Shown here in pieces: positions 880-21,996 of a DNA stretch of 22,450 bases. The notes below the pieces were generated by a model. It searched no databases and had not been told where the DNA came from. It saw only the letters and a program-made list of their open reading frames with translations. Numbering within the stretch: position 1 is the first letter of the stretch; each line of letters begins with the position of its first letter. The position numbers and the translations under genes are program-made. Source of the DNA: a virus; IMG/VR virus record IMGVR_UViG_3300040758_000014, positions 1-22,450 of that record. The stretch is one strand, 5' to 3'.

Positions 880-975
880 TTAAGCCTTGCTTCGCGAAAT
901 AAGCAGTTCTGCTAAGTTTTTGCTACGTTCTCTTACTTGTAACTTATTGTCATCTTTATTGTTTCCACCACTCAA
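880..975 (-). CDS. Candidate 31-residue peptide with TTG start
   Basis: A 31-codon frame starts with TTG at 975 and ends with TAA at 880-882, two bases before the next ATG. GGGAG lies 9 bases upstream of the TTG, inside the end of the glycosyltransferase-like gene, which it overlaps by 20 bases. The peptide is charged, with an amphipathic-looking second half (LQVRERSKNLAELLISRSKA). It fills what would otherwise be a 78-base gap in a very compact gene string, and its translation could couple to the 121-residue gene, whose own binding site is weak. The case rests on spacing and the binding site alone. Confidence 0.4.
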   Translation of the reverse strand: MSGGNNKDDNKLQVRERSKNLAELLISRSKA

Positions 976-1516
976 GCACTAATTCTCCCTTAACGCGTCT
1001 TACAGAACATTCTTGAGTGCCCCAACTCATGCCTTCACCTAGATGCTGAGCGTGGCATAAGCCTAGATGGCAGAAACACTCGCGAGGTATCGGTCTCAAC
1101 TCGCTCTTAAACTCGTTGTTCATGACACGCTGTAGCCAGCCTGGCTTATCGTCGGGTTTGTAGCAAGCAAGAATCTTCTTCAGCGTCGTGACGTTCTTAT
1201 TGGCATAGATCACGTCGCCATTAAATTTGCCATCAGGACTCGTTGAGACATACACATGCTTATCGTCAGGCGGTGTAAACCATTTACGAACTCGAGTATC
1301 GGCATCGACCCAAATAGCTTGTGGATCATCGATGAGAGCCTCACAACGCACTTTGTCGCTAATAGATCTTACAAACGAGTTCGTATCGTAAAATCCAACA
1401 GGAAGCAATGTATGCGTCCATCCCTTGGGAAGCGAGTCTTTAACTTGTTGTATGCAATCTCTATAAATTTTCGGAATCTCGTTCCATTCACGATCAAACC
1501 ATGTCACTATATTCAT
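956..1516 (-). CDS. Putative DXD glycosyltransferase (GT-A/GT32-like, short)
   Basis: This 186-residue protein starts at ATG 1516 with AAGGAG 8 bases upstream. Residues 53-61 (SDKVRCEAL) and 68-76 (IWVDADTRV) match the pattern of the sugar-transferase family with DXD motif, where an S-D-x-x-R helix precedes the metal- and nucleotide-sugar-binding D-x-D (here D71-A-D73). The usual GGIY segment before the DXD is replaced by DDPQAIW. The C-terminal part has several Cys and His residues (about 147-170) of unknown role. The protein is shorter than most members of the family. It lies between the tail fibre and the collagen-like fibre genes, which suggests that it glycosylates a virion protein or alters a host glycan. 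The fold is inferred from motifs only. Confidence 0.6.
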   Translation of the reverse strand: MNIVTWFDREWNEIPKIYRDCIQQVKDSLPKGWTHTLLPVGFYDTNSFVRSISDKVRCEALIDDPQAIWVDADTRVRKWFTPPDDKHVYVSTSPDGKFNGDVIYANKNVTTLKKILACYKPDDKPGWLQRVMNNEFKSELRPIPRECFCHLGLCHAQHLGEGMSWGTQECSVRRVKGELVLEWWKQ

Positions 1517-15623: not shown

Positions 15624-16037
15624 TTAGGCAACGCCAGTTGCGCCTTGCGAGCCTTGGATGCCAGTGTTACCTTGATGTCCTTGGACTCCGTCAACACCGG
15701 TCGACCCTTGTGTTCCCGCAACTCCGGTTGACCCACTACCGGCTACGCCCGTAGAACCACGAGATCCGGCAACTCCAGTTGCACCAGCAGCAACAGACGT
15801 ACCAGCAAGAGTCAACACAGCGGTAGCATTCAGATAAAGATCTGGCTTGAGTTCAATCTGACTCGTGTAAGGAAGATCTTTCCACGCTGTTGAGCCATCG
15901 GCTACTTTATAGTGATACTCAGTCGTTCCAGCAAGAGTAGTCTCAGTCTTATCGCTTGATAGCATAAGAGATCCTGCCGCTAGAGTAGGATTCGCTGACG
16001 TCCAGTTTGCTTCTGAATCGAAATACTTTACTGACAT
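15624..16037 (-). CDS. Fibre-like protein with collagen-like tail, candidate head fibre
   Basis: This 137-residue protein starts at ATG 16037 with AAGGAG 6 bases upstream. Residues 15-60 resemble the short anchoring domain of phage fibres: 'L-A-A-G-S-L-M-L-S-S-D-K-T' followed by 'Y-H-Y-K-V-A-D-G-S-T-A-W-K-D-L-P-Y', close to the common 'KvGDGtt-W-dLpy' ending. Residues 85-137 are Gly-X-Y triplets, about 17 in all, with one two-residue interruption near residues 100-102 (GSG). The triplets are rich in Ser, Thr, Val, Ala and Gln, with no Pro in the Y position. The chain stops within the collagen-like part. Its place in the head module, away from tail fibres, suggests a capsid surface fibre or decoration, by analogy with head fibres of other phages. 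Confidence 0.75.
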   Translation of the reverse strand: MSVKYFDSEANWTSANPTLAAGSLMLSSDKTETTLAGTTEYHYKVADGSTAWKDLPYTSQIELKPDLYLNATAVLTLAGTSVAAGATGVAGSRGSTGVAGSGSTGVAGTQGSTGVDGVQGHQGNTGIQGSQGATGVA

Positions 16038-16047
16038 ATCTGTCTCC

Positions 16048-16326
16048 TTAAGACAGTACGATCAACACTTCGTGATCGAGTAGTAAACGATAGTTTTCTT
16101 TCTCAATTGTGATGTTCGCGCCGCTTCCCGCACTATACATAATCGTATCATCTACGGCACAACATATCGGAATCACTGTTCCATTCATCGATGTGCCACC
16201 GGGACCTACAGCAACTACTCTAGCGAGACGAAACGGAGTTTCGCCTGGTAAGACAAGCCCGCCTTCAGACAAGTTATCAGACGGAAGCTCTTTAACAACA
16301 ACACGGTTGTACGTTGGCTTAAACAT
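16048..16326 (-). CDS. GroES-like co-chaperonin (Cpn10)
   Basis: This 92-residue protein starts at ATG 16326, overlapping the preceding stop by one base (TAATG), with GGGAG 7 bases upstream. Cpn10 features in order: 'P-T-Y-N-R-V-V-V-K-E' at 4-13 (GroES 'PL-DR-V-V'), a mobile-loop equivalent at about 15-34 with GGLVLPG holding a hydrophobic Leu-Val-Leu triplet where GroES uses Ile-Val-Leu to bind GroEL, 'A-R-V-V-A-V-G-P-G' at 35-43, 'V-D-D-T-I-M-Y' and a final 'H-E-V-L-I-V-L'. Length is close to the usual 95-97. It probably caps host GroEL during folding of a virion protein, as T4 gp31 does. P22-type coats depend on GroEL/GroES, so the coat protein encoded 2.2 kb downstream is the likely client (inference). 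Confidence 0.87.
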   Translation of the reverse strand: MFKPTYNRVVVKELPSDNLSEGGLVLPGETPFRLARVVAVGPGGTSMNGTVIPICCAVDDTIMYSAGSGANITIEKENYRLLLDHEVLIVLS

Positions 16327-16574
16327 TATTTTCTCCCTTTTCTGTAAGCCTGTTCAACACAATCCAAAATCAGTGATTGCAATCTATCCCTTATTTTATA
16401 GCGTTTAAGGGTTATCTCAATCGCTTGACGTGGTTTCTTCGTCTTCAGCTCTCGTTTTATAGCAGATTTTAACGGTTGACTGATGACTCGCCACTTTTTA
16501 ACGAAGTCGACTTCGAGTGAACGTACAGGTGATAGCCTGAAGCCAGATTTCGGACTAGAGCGAATTGCAGTCAT
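16326..16574 (-). CDS. Small basic protein, unknown
   Basis: This 82-residue protein starts at ATG 16574 and overlaps the metallopeptidase-like gene by 20 bases; GAAAG upstream is a poor binding site, so coupling is likely. It has a very high share of Lys and Arg, a central segment 'VKKWRVISQPLKSAIKRELKTKKPRQAI' without acidic clusters, and a C-terminal helix ending RKGRK. There is no Cys or His pattern. It might bind DNA or an acidic partner. Its tight position between two coupled genes suggests that it works with the ATP-grasp/metallopeptidase/GroES group. I do not recognise a family. Confidence 0.7.
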   Translation of the reverse strand: MTAIRSSPKSGFRLSPVRSLEVDFVKKWRVISQPLKSAIKRELKTKKPRQAIEITLKRYKIRDRLQSLILDCVEQAYRKGRK

Positions 16575-17136
16575 CTTCGTATTCTTTCCAGTTCACGTTA
16601 AGAAGAGCTGCCATCAAACGTTCAACTGCAGTTGCTACACAATGTTCTTTGCGATATGGAGCGAGTGGACTATCGCCTGGTTCGTCTAAGTTGCCCTCTT
16701 TACGTGCTTCTTCAAAAGCAATATCGAACTTCGTAATAGCTTTCTCGCTTACGCCGTTATGCTCTGTTTGTAGAACTTCAGCTAACTCGTGTAGTCCAAC
16801 AAGCATCTCGTGTCGATTATCGCTCATCTCGCTCACGAAGATTCGTAGAGTGCCTTCAACATCGAAGTAGTAATCGCCTACTGTCTCGTAACGTTGTCTC
16901 TCGTGAGGGATCACTTCGATGACGATCTTCTTGATCGGTCTCCCCGTCCGATCAGAAAGAAACTCTTTAAGATCTCTCACGTTATTTTCTTCTAAAAGCT
17001 TAACTTTTCGCCCTAGAGACTTAAGTACTTCGTAGACAGCTTTTCCACTAACAGAATCTTCTATTTCGAGTTCGCCATCAAAGGTTTTAAGAATATCGAT
17101 CGCTTCATTAATACCGCCGCCAATTTTTACTTTCAT
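16555..17136 (-). CDS. Predicted zinc metallopeptidase-like protein (HELAE)
   Basis: This 193-residue protein starts at ATG 17136 and overlaps the ATP-grasp stop as ATGA. Residues 98-126 have a strand-then-helix pattern leading to H116-E117-L-A-E120 and H126, resembling minimal metallopeptidases in which strand, HExx[HE] helix and a later acidic or His ligand form a metal site. Further conserved-looking residues follow: F137-D138, 'E-P-G-D-S-P-L-A-P-Y' at 152-161, H165 and E172 in the last helix, and a W-K-E-Y end. I recall similar small phage proteins with this HE...PGD...APY...H...E arrangement, but cannot confirm a family name. It may cleave a virion or host substrate, or be an inactive structural relative. 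Confidence 0.6.
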   Translation of the reverse strand: MKVKIGGGINEAIDILKTFDGELEIEDSVSGKAVYEVLKSLGRKVKLLEENNVRDLKEFLSDRTGRPIKKIVIEVIPHERQRYETVGDYYFDVEGTLRIFVSEMSDNRHEMLVGLHELAEVLQTEHNGVSEKAITKFDIAFEEARKEGNLDEPGDSPLAPYRKEHCVATAVERLMAALLNVNWKEYEDDCNSL

Positions 17137-18371
17137 AGTTGCATTGCCTCGTTAAGTGTTTCTTCAGCAGTATCTAACGTATCGATACGACACGACACGT
17201 CAGGACCTTCAATCAGTTCAGCCACTTTCTTCACGTTGTTAATCGCTTCTTGTACTGAGTTTCCTAAGCCTACGACTGCTCCGATGTCATTTGATCCTGT
17301 TGGCACGATGTACGATAAGTCGTCACACACGATGCGTTTCTTCAACTTGACCCACTGTGATACGTTACTTGGAAAGTAGACTGGACAAAAGTGATTCGTA
17401 GCCCAATTTGATTCGATTAGCAACTCAACAGCGTGAATGGCAACGTTTCTCGGAGCAATCAACTCGCCATTCATGCCTGCCCAGATGAACTCGCCCAAGT
17501 TTTCGATCATCTCGAGATAGATTTCACCTGGAGGACATGGCTCTCGCGCCGTAAAGTCGATCATGTAGCCTGTTCCACTTTGATCGATTCGAGTTTCTGT
17601 ACTAAAGAAGCCACAATAGCCGTATTGCTTAAACGTGTCGCTCATCGCCGACGTGAAGTCTGTGATTTGGCTTGGAAGCGAAGTAAAGTCGCGCCATAAG
17701 CCTGCATAAGCCTTGTCTTTGACTTCGACTCCGAAAAGCCAACTTGCAGGGTACTGACCGTTCACACTCGCGCCATCATAGCCAATCTCGATGCCATCAA
17801 TCGGCCACTCTATCACGAACTCGATGTATTCAGCGAGAGGCCCTAAGCAATAAGCAAACTCGTCTAACTCAGGCGCTACGAGGTCGTAGTTCTTAGCAAA
17901 GAACGTTTCGATCAAGCCTCTCCACTTATTCACTTTGACGTAGACGCCTTGATTCTCTTTTAGAAACGCTCTCAAGTTCGATAAGCCAACGACTTTTGCC
18001 CACTTGTTGACGGGAAGCCCTAGATCTTGCATGTGTTGTTTGATAAGATCACGTTGCAACTCGAGCTCTTCTCCATTACGTGATCCCCACACCTTCTCGT
18101 CGTTTCTCGCTAAGAAGTCCAGAAAGCTTCCGTAATACACGTCAGGAGAGATCCAGCCATCAATCTCGTCATACACATCCCAGATGTTCTCGACGACTTC
18201 GACCGAAGTACCCATGCCGATATAAGTCTTGTTGGGTTTTGGGTATGCATCTTGCCAGGCTGGATTAGAGTAATATACTCTCTTGTACTCACGTGCAAGT
18301 CGCTCAGCTAAAGGCAAATAGTTGCCTGAAGTGTCGATTACACAAGCAACGACGTCTTTAGTCTCTTTCAT
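17133..18371 (-). CDS. ATP-grasp ligase-like protein (PurD-like fold)
   Basis: This 412-residue protein starts at ATG 18371, overlapping the portal stop as ATGA, with AAAGGTGG upstream. The order of elements matches the ATP-grasp superfamily: a pre-ATP-grasp region (1-115, ending 'W-G-S-R-N-G-E-E-L-E-L-Q-R'), a linker 'M-Q-D-L-G-L-P-V', a 'V-Y-V-K146-V' lysine strand for ATP, E182/E184 in the hinge strand, 'DGIEIGYDG' at 192-200, and a metal-binding end 'F-S-T-E259-T-R' with 'M-I-D272-F-T-A-R' at 256-276, where many members have E-x-N-x-R. The C-terminal 75 residues resemble the rudiment domain of PurD/carboxylase-type members. It should form an acyl-phosphate and join it to an amine. Substrate unknown; placement next to portal argues against plain purine synthesis. 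Confidence 0.78.
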   Translation of the reverse strand: MKETKDVVACVIDTSGNYLPLAERLAREYKRVYYSNPAWQDAYPKPNKTYIGMGTSVEVVENIWDVYDEIDGWISPDVYYGSFLDFLARNDEKVWGSRNGEELELQRDLIKQHMQDLGLPVNKWAKVVGLSNLRAFLKENQGVYVKVNKWRGLIETFFAKNYDLVAPELDEFAYCLGPLAEYIEFVIEWPIDGIEIGYDGASVNGQYPASWLFGVEVKDKAYAGLWRDFTSLPSQITDFTSAMSDTFKQYGYCGFFSTETRIDQSGTGYMIDFTAREPCPPGEIYLEMIENLGEFIWAGMNGELIAPRNVAIHAVELLIESNWATNHFCPVYFPSNVSQWVKLKKRIVCDDLSYIVPTGSNDIGAVVGLGNSVQEAINNVKKVAELIEGPDVSCRIDTLDTAEETLNEAMQL

Positions 18372-20122
18372 ACACCACCTTTAGCAACAGTGAAGCCTTT
18401 CTTTAACGGCACTTTGCTAACTTTCTTTTGTGGCGTTAGATTCATCGTTGGAATCGGCTGTTGCATCTGAGCAAGTTGAGCTGCTTGTTGCTCTTCAGGC
18501 GTCATCATCAACTCTTGATCACTTGGCATCTCAGCTTGTGTCTTCTTGTCTTCTTTAGCCTTTTCTCGAATCTCGTCAATTACAGGCTGTACTTCTTCAT
18601 CATCCAAGTCGTTGAACACACTGCGTGTGACTTGTTCGAGTGCAAGAGCACGTCCCGATACACCAGGGTCAAGTGCTATGTAGTCGCCGTAAAGCTTGAC
18701 AGTACTATCAGGATCTTCAGGATGATAGTCTTCTTCATACAAACTTGTGAAGTCATGTTGTTCGCTTCTCACGTATTGTTGAAAGATTCGAGATATCGCC
18801 TCTTCAGCGTTTTGTACCATCTTGGCAGACTCTTTAAGCACCCACTCTTTCGCCTGAAAGCGATATGCTTCTGCCTTTCCGGACGTGGGCACGCCTTCTA
18901 CGCCTTGTTGTCCAGCCTGACGAAAAATGTCTTCACGTAAGTCTTTGACTGTATTGCCAAGTTCTGTATACGGCCCTGTAGGCGGCGCTAGATACATCGG
19001 GAGCGGATAAGTCTCCTGATTAGGCCCACCATTTGGCGGGAGCCATAAGCCTCTGAGTGGTCCCATCGCCTGTATCGTATTAGAGTTAGCATCTGATGTC
19101 TTTGGCAAACAGGGAATCGGAAACATCTGAGAACGAACTAGACGTATCTGCCACGAGTCTAGATTGTAGATTGACCAGTTACACTTTGCAACTTGATAGA
19201 ACTGAGGATGAGGAAGAATCGTGTCTTCTTCAACTTCGCCAGGCATTACGGGAATGACAGGACACTCGTCGAGTCCCAACGTGACTTGCGTCTCTTTCAT
19301 CTCTTGCCAATCGCCTTTGTCGTTCTTACGAAGCTTCACTGAGTAGTCTTTTGTCCAAAGCTTCCAACGTGGGTCGTCAATGATTTGACCCGTCTTCGGA
19401 TCTTTCATCTTCTCAGGTCGCTCTCTAAAAGCGATTTTGGTTATCTGACAGAAGTCATCAAGCTCTAAGAAAGCTGTCTCGACTTGTTGGGGAAGACGCA
19501 TGTAAGCAAATGGGAATGTACGATTCTTGAGTGCATCTGTTCTAAACAGACTCACTAAGGGAAAGTTATCGATAACGATGAAAGAGACACTCAAGAGACG
19601 TGCATATCGAGCGATCTTCTTCATAAACGTGCCAATATGACGATGCCGACAGTCAACGTTGTCTAAAAATGCATTCCAGAGTGGCGCTAGTTTACCGGCT
19701 TCATCGAGTACTCCATTAACTTCAGTCTTGCGTGTTGCTCCACAAGCAAAGACAGGAATATACGTAGCATCGATAATCTGAGGTACGAAGTTACGATAAT
19801 GTGTTGTGGCACGTCTCTCTAAGAACTCGTCATCTAGTTCTATTTGGCTCTTATCGAGAATCGTGCCATCTTTGAAGCCACCCGTCCCGAAATAAGCATT
19901 TAGCATAAAATCGTAGTGATTGATTCGGAAGATCGGCGGCTTCTTGGGCGTGTTACGTGAAGTTCCTGAGATGCTTGATTGCGCCGTTTGAGCTGAAGTC
20001 CCCGAGCCTGTAGTTGCAGCTATCGGAAGATTGATCCCTGCACCTGGATCCATCAATCCCATTCCCGACGCTGTATCGCCACCTTGATCAAGTCCCGGCA
20101 AGAAAGTTATGTCTTGTGCCAT
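18368..20122 (-). CDS. Portal protein
   Basis: This 584-residue protein starts at ATG 20122 with GAGG about 5 bases upstream and follows the terminase large subunit after 37 bases. It has the mixed alpha/beta make-up of portals: a clip/stem-like middle (residues about 300-400), then 'T-S-G-K-A-E-A-Y-R-F-Q-A-K-E-W-V-L-K-E-S-A' at 413-432, which resembles the long crown-proximal helix region of many portals ('SG-x-A-x-x-x-x-x-...-A'). The first 60 residues are disordered-looking (Gly, Ser, Thr rich), and the C-terminus is Gln/Met/Pro rich. Length is usual for large portals. It forms the dodecameric DNA gate at one capsid vertex. Confidence 0.85.
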   Translation of the reverse strand: MAQDITFLPGLDQGGDTASGMGLMDPGAGINLPIAATTGSGTSAQTAQSSISGTSRNTPKKPPIFRINHYDFMLNAYFGTGGFKDGTILDKSQIELDDEFLERRATTHYRNFVPQIIDATYIPVFACGATRKTEVNGVLDEAGKLAPLWNAFLDNVDCRHRHIGTFMKKIARYARLLSVSFIVIDNFPLVSLFRTDALKNRTFPFAYMRLPQQVETAFLELDDFCQITKIAFRERPEKMKDPKTGQIIDDPRWKLWTKDYSVKLRKNDKGDWQEMKETQVTLGLDECPVIPVMPGEVEEDTILPHPQFYQVAKCNWSIYNLDSWQIRLVRSQMFPIPCLPKTSDANSNTIQAMGPLRGLWLPPNGGPNQETYPLPMYLAPPTGPYTELGNTVKDLREDIFRQAGQQGVEGVPTSGKAEAYRFQAKEWVLKESAKMVQNAEEAISRIFQQYVRSEQHDFTSLYEEDYHPEDPDSTVKLYGDYIALDPGVSGRALALEQVTRSVFNDLDDEEVQPVIDEIREKAKEDKKTQAEMPSDQELMMTPEEQQAAQLAQMQQPIPTMNLTPQKKVSKVPLKKGFTVAKGGV

Positions 20123-20159: not shown

Positions 20160-21659
20160 TTAATACGTACGTATCGTTGCTGCCTCAGCTAATCTTGGGA
20201 CGCAACGTGTAAAGTAGATAAGTGCTTGTGACATCGCGTCTACACGATCTTTAAACTCGCTATTTGGAAACGCTAAGATCTCTTCGAGGTACTTTGTTCG
20301 ATTGTACACACTGTCGTGTATGTAGACGTTGCCTGTTTCCCAAAGTGCAGAAATCGACTCAGCACGTACTTCTTTACCACCAAACTTCGAAGGATTGAAC
20401 TGATAAACAGAGTGCTTCATCTTCATCTTTTCAATCACGTAGTAGCCGTTGGCAGCATTCTCCACTACGGCTATCGCGCCTCGATATAGCCCTAAGAGTT
20501 TATCGAGTTGTGTAGCTGTCTCTATCGCTCCCATGCGTGTCGTTAAGTCATACAGCATATAGTAGTTAGGAGTCTTCTTAGCCCACACTTGCAAGCTGGC
20601 GGGACACGATGTTGCTGCATCCGTAAAACTTGCATCGACGCTCACGATGATCTGATCGAATATCGGCGTTGACTCTTTTGTAAACCACTGTGGCCAATGC
20701 TCTTTGAAGAAACGACCACCTACAACTATCGGTGACTGATTGTATTGTCCTGAGTACGCTGTACGTTGTACGATTCTCGCTTCTGCTAGAATCTCTTTTG
20801 AGAGTCTTTCAGGGAACATCAAGCCATCAATATAGAATTTCTCTAACTCGATTGGCTCGGGATGATGTCCATCAGTCAACTCAGCAGGCAACGAGATGTA
20901 TCTGTACTTCGTTCCATACTGCTTCTTAATGTGTCCCGTCAAATCTTGATTGTCAATACGCTGTTGAATCACGATGCGAATACCTACGTCCTGATTATCA
21001 AGACGCGACCACATGCCTTCATCCCACCAGCGTTTAACGAGATCTCTATCAGCTTGACTGTATCTATCATCAGCGGCGTTAGGGTCATCAGCCAAGATGA
21101 TGTCGGCTTTATGACCTGTCGGGTTGCTATGAGGAGACGTTGTACGTCTCTCGCCGCCTCGATTGTTAAGTAAGTACTCGTTTGTATCAGTCGTTAACTC
21201 GAAGACGTCTTTCCAGTAAGTTTGAAACCACTCGCTCACGATTAGCAATCTCGAAGCGCGTACATCTCTACCAGCAAGCCCAGGTGAATACGACGTTGTG
21301 ATGAATTTTAAGTGTGGGGCTCTTATCCAACACCATGCAGGAAACGCAACGCTACAGATTGCACTTTTGAGTGATTTAGGCGGAGTATTAATACAGAGAT
21401 CGTAGAACTTCTTCTCTCCCTTGAAGACTCGCTCCGCCATTGCTTGCAACTCGTCACAGAACAACTTTAGATGCCAGTTCTTTACAAGCGTTACGCCAGG
21501 AACGACAACGTGCCATGAACAAACAAAAAAGCTGTAGAAAGATGCTTCACATTGCATCCTCTCAAGCTTTTGTGATTCCCGCTCCCGTTGTCTCAGCAAG
21601 TCTTCTATCGATTTCAGCGATTCTGGACTTAACGGCTTCGATAGAGTCGCTGTCTCCAT
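20160..21659 (-). CDS. terL: Terminase large subunit
   Basis: The start chosen is ATG 21659 (499 residues), with GGGAGAG 7 bases upstream; an in-frame TTG at 21683 lacks such a site. ATPase half: Walker A-like NTPPKSLKS at 91-99 (the terminase form of G-x4-GK-S, as in PPRHGKS), Walker B DIILADDP at 186-193 with the acidic pair D191-D192, and a coupling-like VIQQR segment at about 230-234 followed by D-L-T-G. Nuclease half (RNase H fold): first Asp in IIVSVDASF (D342), Glu in AVVENAANG (E400), and a third acidic site in FKDRVDAM (D471/D474). It cuts concatemers and pumps DNA through the portal. It overlaps the small subunit gene by 98 bases. Confidence 0.96.
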   Translation of the reverse strand: METATLSKPLSPESLKSIEDLLRQRERESQKLERMQCEASFYSFFVCSWHVVVPGVTLVKNWHLKLFCDELQAMAERVFKGEKKFYDLCINTPPKSLKSAICSVAFPAWCWIRAPHLKFITTSYSPGLAGRDVRASRLLIVSEWFQTYWKDVFELTTDTNEYLLNNRGGERRTTSPHSNPTGHKADIILADDPNAADDRYSQADRDLVKRWWDEGMWSRLDNQDVGIRIVIQQRIDNQDLTGHIKKQYGTKYRYISLPAELTDGHHPEPIELEKFYIDGLMFPERLSKEILAEARIVQRTAYSGQYNQSPIVVGGRFFKEHWPQWFTKESTPIFDQIIVSVDASFTDAATSCPASLQVWAKKTPNYYMLYDLTTRMGAIETATQLDKLLGLYRGAIAVVENAANGYYVIEKMKMKHSVYQFNPSKFGGKEVRAESISALWETGNVYIHDSVYNRTKYLEEILAFPNSEFKDRVDAMSQALIYFTRCVPRLAEAATIRTY

Positions 21660-21996
21660 TTTTGATCTCTCCCGAGTGTTCAACTTTTACGCCTGGTGTC
21701 CACTTACGTGTTGGATCGTCGAAGCATGGCGTATGAGTCTTAACGAACTTCGCCATCTCGGCTACTAATGCAGACTTCTGTGTTGCTTCGAGCGTCGCTA
21801 AGATAGCATCGTCTGCTATATCGTGAAACTTAGATCTCGCTCGCTCAAACGCCTCTTTGATCGCTGGATACGTATTTCTGTACATGTAGACAGTTGAGGG
21901 ATCGATCTTCAACACTCTCGCGATGTCGTTGACAACACCGTAACGTGCTTCGACAACCTTGACGACTCGCTTCAGATATCGCTCGCTCATTGGCAT
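21562..21996 (-). CDS. terS: Terminase small subunit
   Basis: This 144-residue protein starts at ATG 21996 with AAGGG 8 bases upstream (a second ATG at 21990 is possible). Residues about 18-45 form a helix-turn-helix ('Y-G-V-V-N-D-I-A-R-V-L-K-I-D-P-S-T-V-Y'), followed by a basic helix and a middle region for oligomerisation. The C-terminal part (residues 118-144) is helical and charged and could contact the large subunit, which is encoded immediately downstream with overlap. Small subunits bind the packaging start site; the 15-bp palindrome just upstream (22016-22030) is a candidate target. The identity is supported by the HTH, the size and the position next to terL. Confidence 0.8.
   Translation of the reverse strand: MPMSERYLKRVVKVVEARYGVVNDIARVLKIDPSTVYMYRNTYPAIKEAFERARSKFHDIADDAILATLEATQKSALVAEMAKFVKTHTPCFDDPTRKWTPGVKVEHSGEIKNGDSDSIEAVKSRIAEIDRRLAETTGAGITKA

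Follow-up and report, generated by a model that had tools for sequence, protein, structure and literature searches.

A PurD-type ATP-grasp ligase and a small protein with a putative HELAE metal site are encoded side by side among the head genes of an uncultured virus, and very probably act as a functional pair. Single-sequence searches of Pfam, PHROGs and the PDB match neither protein, yet the pair is found in dozens of phages from environmental metagenomes. The two genes have been brought together repeatedly in unrelated phages, and for viruses that have not been cultured this is an unusually strong case for a functional link. We consider the best explanation to be a two-gene unit in which a PurD-derived carboxylate-amine ligase and a zincin-shaped small metalloprotein would carry out small-amine chemistry, and give this reading a probability of roughly 45%.

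Gene layout and search for relatives

The window analysed here, meaning the whole stretch of DNA, is a 22,450-base IMG/VR virus record whose head genes all lie on the minus strand (Table 1). Downstream of the portal gene and the reported genes come genes for collagen-like, MuF-like, putative scaffold and P22-type coat proteins. The original prediction described portal, ATP-grasp, HELAE, basic and GroES genes joined by short overlaps; all five are present and the overlaps are exact, including the 20 bases shared by the HELAE and basic genes and the TAATG junction (a 1-base overlap) between the basic and GroES genes. The GroES protein scores 54.3 bits against Pfam Cpn10 over residues 2-90, where the cut-off is 21.1. 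Homologues of the ATP-grasp, HELAE and basic proteins (55%, 48% and 41% identity, respectively) stand at matching places in loci L006 and L014. Strong purifying selection is seen in close pairs from both the ATP-grasp and the HELAE family (pS 0.19-0.83 vs pN 0.03-0.17).

Table 1. Features of the head-gene region in the window.
Feature	Position	Strand	Evidence or remark
Small terminase	21562-21996	-	By position
Large terminase	20160-21683	-	
Portal protein, upstream context	18368-20122	-	PHROG 145, E=6.8e-26
Overlap (ATGA) of portal and ATP-grasp genes	18368-18371	-	
PurD-type ATP-grasp protein, 412 aa	17133-18371	-	Core of the unit
Overlap (ATGA) of ATP-grasp and HELAE genes	17133-17136	-	
HELAE metal-site protein, 193 aa	16555-17136	-	42-member family
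N-terminal extension of HELAE protein, 66 aa	16939-17136	-	Low-confidence model; no counterpart in most relatives
Conserved domain of HELAE protein, residues 67-193	16558-16938	-	Secondary structure and conservation
HELAE codons, residues 116-120	16777-16791	-	H116 and E120 invariant, E117 not
Basic protein, 82 aa, pI 11.1	16326-16574	-	Lineage-specific neighbour
GroES (Cpn10) co-chaperonin, 92 aa	16048-16326	-	Pfam Cpn10, 1.4e-14; PHROG 3188, 7e-15
Collagen-like gene, GxT repeat, 137 aa, between GroES and MuF-like genes	15624-16037	-	Pfam Collagen, 3.6e-7

Searches with the single ATP-grasp and HELAE sequences likewise found no match in INPHARED or by peptide patterns in IMG/VR, and family profiles were therefore needed to test the folds guessed in the original prediction. 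We opened the ligase family with a degenerate DNA pattern for its DFTxRxPxPPxE motif, which retrieved true relatives of 30-55% identity. Profiles built from these led to at least 80 ligase loci and, separately, at least 27 HELAE loci in IMG/VR; as the searches rest on conserved patterns, the family frequencies are lower bounds. The relatives found are environmental phages. Bacterial and archaeal genomes, one per species (~85,000), yielded matches in four short MAG contigs only, and hence no sign of a common prophage or host gene. The sole ligase relative in INPHARED is an unannotated clade-B member in the metagenomic myovirus MW202796.1, and the unit is absent from the window's portal-based INPHARED relatives NrS-3, Tunturi_4, hairong and Cyrano. 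MT838712 (L013) was rejected as a phage relative, being a distant match with the look of a bacterial contig.

The ligase, the HELAE protein and their pairing

The ATP-grasp fold claimed for the ligase was borne out by its family profile, AlphaFold, Foldseek and VIA. Searched against the PDB, a profile of 74 family sequences found PurD (2yw2, E=4.9e-24) and no other family at a comparable level. The AlphaFold model of the 412-aa protein (pLDDT 96.4) has a GAR synthetase as its best Foldseek match (2yrx, E=4.7e-23); among the 746 chains at E<=0.001, the top 50 are all ATP-grasp enzymes. VIA places PurD in rows 1-13 of its ranking (3lp8 with Z 32.0, 3.3 Å, over 372 residues), followed by PurT with Z 25, and GARS_A and GARS_C of Pfam each match four family members. 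Homology to PurD thus runs over the full length, in fold, domain order and profile. That the protein is a PurD-type ligase we regard as nearly certain; it is also very probably an active ATP-grasp enzyme.

At low overall identity, E104, K146, R151, E216, E259, R276, P280 and N291 are invariant in the 70 main-clade members, and R107, E155 and D272 are nearly so. The conserved ATP/Mg residues R107, K146, E259, D272 and R276 place these members in the ATP-grasp superfamily. Between PurD and the phage ligase, the ATP-site positions for lysine/arginine, glutamate/aspartate and arginine align; by this alignment, R107 and K146 would contact the ATP phosphates, and E259 and D272 are the likely Mg pair. 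Unlike PurD, however, the main clade (window included) has replaced the PRA-binding GGREHA loop, the P-loop GLAAGKG and EFNxRxGDPE (now IDxxxRxxxPP), has likewise lost GPNTG and has gained E259, and the phage ligase is virus-borne among late genes. The GPNTG loop survives in most members of a divergent clade (L098, L104, L107, L110, L114, L115 and L117). Because the PRA, P-loop and EFNxRxGDPE motifs are replaced, we do not file the protein as a GAR synthetase; it is PurD by descent, yet probably not a GAR synthetase.

Its partner carries seven residues that are invariant in all 42 HELAE members (H116, E120, G154, P160, Y161, H165 and E172), forming an H-x3-E...H-x6-E set; most members also have E117, though in L035 and L046 it is replaced by Ala or Ser. 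The domain model (pLDDT ~95-98) has three strands followed by helices, the first long one of which carries the HELAE motif; H165 and E172 are also on the domain's helices. This order of strands and an HExx-bearing helix resembles that of ImmA/IrrE, SprT and other zincins, and the claim that the protein is metallopeptidase-like survives weakly to that extent: zincins (PprI/IrrE, CapP, BlaR1, abylysin and SprT) dominate the structural rows, and SprT and IrrE recur in a viral structure library. The rows themselves are weak (Z 3-5, with a best of 5.1 for PprI), and Foldseek gives nothing significant (E above 0.004). Unlike zincins, the protein has HExxE in place of HExxH, with E120 invariant, and an invariant His and Glu on a later helix. 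From the model, we read HELAE as a putative minimal zincin-like metal site, made of HExxE and a later His. The protein may act as a hydrolase, with chances a little below even.

The strongest evidence of joint function is the independent arrival of HELAE beside the same kind of enzyme. When HELAE was searched alone, a PurD-like gene lay within the locus in 22 of the 27 loci listed and elsewhere in the record in one more; the four loci without one are all fragments of 8-30 kb. Conversely, HELAE stands within 500 bases of the ligase in 36 of 81 non-redundant cases (23 upstream, 13 downstream), and the ligase tree has at least 20 switches between its presence and absence. The two genes abut or overlap in 21 of these 36 pairs, 16 of them by 4 or 1 bases. 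The HELAE ORFs of L069 and L098 are 77% identical while the ligases share only 20% identity and the gene order is reversed; DNA similarity between the two stops at the borders of the HELAE ORF. A MAG contig (L121), where the ligase is followed by HELAE, is an independent case. Protein distances of the partners are uncorrelated (mirror-tree rho -0.18), so co-inheritance is rejected and partners are exchanged. Of 48 records where HELAE is not near the ligase, 47 contain no HELAE at all, which suggests that the ligase can act alone. The functional link between the two proteins that the original prediction drew from one genome is thus upheld by recurrence across relatives, on either side of the ligase. 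In L064, L066, L104, L105 and L113, both genes are in one record, kilobases apart or on opposite strands, showing that adjacency is not obligatory.

The rest of the proposed four-gene cassette did not hold up: only the ATP-grasp and HELAE genes recur together. The basic gene has a homologue on one contig only, from a close relative (seen as L006, L014 and L102), and GroES occurs in the window and in no other locus of the ligase and HELAE families. The window's Cpn10 gene compares with phage co-chaperonins of the T4 gp31 type; the likeness is its place in the head operon, whereas elsewhere co-chaperonins are not linked to the ligase pair. We regard GroES as a separate folding aid. The tie to the portal fell away too, since the pair in relatives follows internal virion or ejection proteins, lies by tail fibres or is found elsewhere. 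What remains of the claimed virion-gene setting is the late location among virion genes in most relatives, and these genes vary (internal virion/ejection proteins, portals, tail proteins and terminase).

Decarboxylase genes beside the ligase

An AdoMet_dc (SpeD-like) gene lies near the ligase in 14 non-redundant loci, mostly adjacent and overlapping, with PF02675 E-values of 1.2e-17, 3.4e-15 and 2.5e-6 among those beside the ligase. By Pfam, AdoMet_dc is found in 10 of 50 records at E<=0.001, six of them over the cut-off, and is lacking from the records of 36 further relatives. In L017, the ligase is instead followed by a pyruvoyl-dependent arginine decarboxylase (PvlArgDC, 4.9e-45). On the ligase tree, L017 nests among SpeD-bearing relatives, and PvlArgDC, which is non-homologous to SpeD, takes SpeD's place. 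In all, 15 relatives have a SpeD-like or PvlArgDC gene beside the ligase. We sought spermidine synthase and arginase-family (arginase/agmatinase) genes in the decarboxylase-bearing records and found none. The window's 22.4 kb contains no decarboxylase gene that we could find.

Decarboxylation of arginine or ornithine is reported for phage SpeD homologues (PMC9992855), and an 'anomalous SpeD', encoded without spermidine synthase, marks arginine or ornithine decarboxylases (PMC10407285); neither paper mentions a ligase. The AdoMet_dc genes of our relatives resemble these in standing beside the ligase without spermidine synthase in the record; unlike them, the ligase-side copies mostly have Asp for His68, and the window has no SpeD. 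With positions assigned by motif resemblance, the pyruvoyl Ser is present in 14 of 14 copies and Cys83 wherever the protein reaches, while His68 is Asp in most c7-type copies and is kept in L034 and L055. Asp at this position makes SpeD-like activity uncertain. Copies with Asp for His68 lie beside the ligase in L018, L020, L023, L024, L035, L048, L054 and L116, and may possibly represent a new functional class of AdoMet_dc.

Because of the AdoMet_dc and PvlArgDC neighbours in relatives, a small amine is a tempting candidate for the ligase substrate, with not quite an even chance of being correct. As neither the window nor most relatives have a decarboxylase, this is an extrapolation, and in the window the amine would have to come from the host. 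Pathways ending in agmatine or putrescine amides do include ATP-grasp enzymes (PMC12568646). In E-64 biosynthesis, the ATP-grasp enzyme joins the amino acid, whereas the amine is put on by another enzyme, so this precedent is indirect (PMC12568646). Glutathionylspermidine synthetase (Gss) and YgiC/YjfC are alike in chemistry, the ATP-dependent formation of an amide to a polyamine, which for the phage ligase is only proposed. Gss also pairs its ligase with an amidase, much as the phage ligase is paired with HELAE. These enzymes differ in belonging to another branch of the ATP-grasp enzymes, and the amidase of Gss is a cysteine enzyme. A GNAT-like acetyltransferase gene stands directly before the ligase in L057 (5529-5945) and L070 (5478-5918); spermidine acetyltransferases are known in phages.

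Proposed function and alternatives

In the mechanism we favour, the ligase would use ATP to phosphorylate a carboxylate and join the activated group to a small amine, with agmatine or putrescine the likeliest choice; the amine would be supplied by a phage decarboxylase where present and otherwise by the host. The metalloprotein, with H116, E120 and H165 (and E172) as likely ligands, would work on what the ligase consumes or makes, and would most likely be a hydrolase, either a deacylase or an amidase. That the unit is expressed with late genes points to a product for virion formation, which might be a polycation or a conjugate formed with packaged DNA or with part of the virion; this is the least certain step of the mechanism, and we consider a use in the virion rather doubtful. 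Put together as an undescribed amine-ligation system in many uncultured tailed phages, in which a PurD-derived ligase and agmatine or putrescine would yield a late polycation or conjugate that the HExxE metalloprotein edits or releases, the scheme is unlikely to be correct in every part.

Several other readings deserve consideration. The patchy presence of the unit and the exchange of its partners resemble accessory modules, as would be expected if it were an anti-defence or hypermodification cassette placing an amine such as agmatine on DNA, a nucleotide or a host or defence molecule. Amine-linked base modifications do exist in phages. However, the genes lie at a late structural location, and base-modification genes were not noticed near the unit; we consider this reading improbable, though the strongest of the alternatives. 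Somewhat less probable is that HELAE is non-hydrolytic, serving as a metal-binding regulator or scaffold like the metal domain of DtxR-type repressors. Weak matches to that domain (Fe_dep_repr_C, PF02742) occur in 7 of 42 members, with a best of 3e-4, and the catalytic-base position E117 is not invariant, whereas E120, H165 and E172 are. The best match nevertheless reaches only 21.1 bits against a cut-off of 27 and spans ~30 residues, covering the H-x3-E helix only, and the three strands before that helix suit zincins better.

In the original prediction, the ligase would attach a peptide or another amine to a protein of the virion, the metallopeptidase would trim it and GroES would help the product to fold. 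The late setting in most relatives (by portal, internal virion/ejection or tail genes), the translational coupling to the portal in the window and the zincin-like shape of HELAE all fit this model. Against it, the GroES and basic genes are not conserved with the pair, the neighbouring virion genes differ among relatives and offer no obvious common protein target, the decarboxylase neighbours favour a small amine, and the ligase descends from PurD, a small-molecule ligase, rather than from a peptide-tagging ATP-grasp family; we judge it less probable again. Least likely by far is a role as an auxiliary purine gene, in which the ligase would be a phage-encoded GAR synthetase that raises nucleotide supply. 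PurD is the closest family by both sequence and fold, and clade B retains the GPNTG loop, but the motif changes in the main clade, a place among late virion genes and not nucleotide genes, and HELAE and decarboxylase partners that make no sense for purine synthesis all oppose it.

ATP-grasp ligases, SpeD-like phage decarboxylases and zincins are already known kinds of protein. The phage ligase family and its recurrent pairing with HELAE, on the other hand, have no match in the libraries and papers searched; we found no paper linking phage ATP-grasp, PurD or agmatine, although an earlier mention in reviews of amidoligases is possible. If the amine link is true, phages would have turned an enzyme of purine synthesis into an amide ligase that works with decarboxylases of their own. 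The occurrence in phages of SpeD-like decarboxylases without spermidine synthase might then be easier to explain.

Some further genes were seen in these records. At window positions 956-1516 (minus strand), near the tail end, a 186-aa protein has a WVDADTRV stretch and a glycosyltransferase-like look. A recurrent glycosyltransferase-like 'PFLWLEPDCVPL' protein is encoded a few kb from the ligase in L042, L066, L081, L082 and L086. L011 encodes a 429-aa protein (1079-2368) in which degenerate 'NIGANIRD' repeats follow one another over a long stretch.
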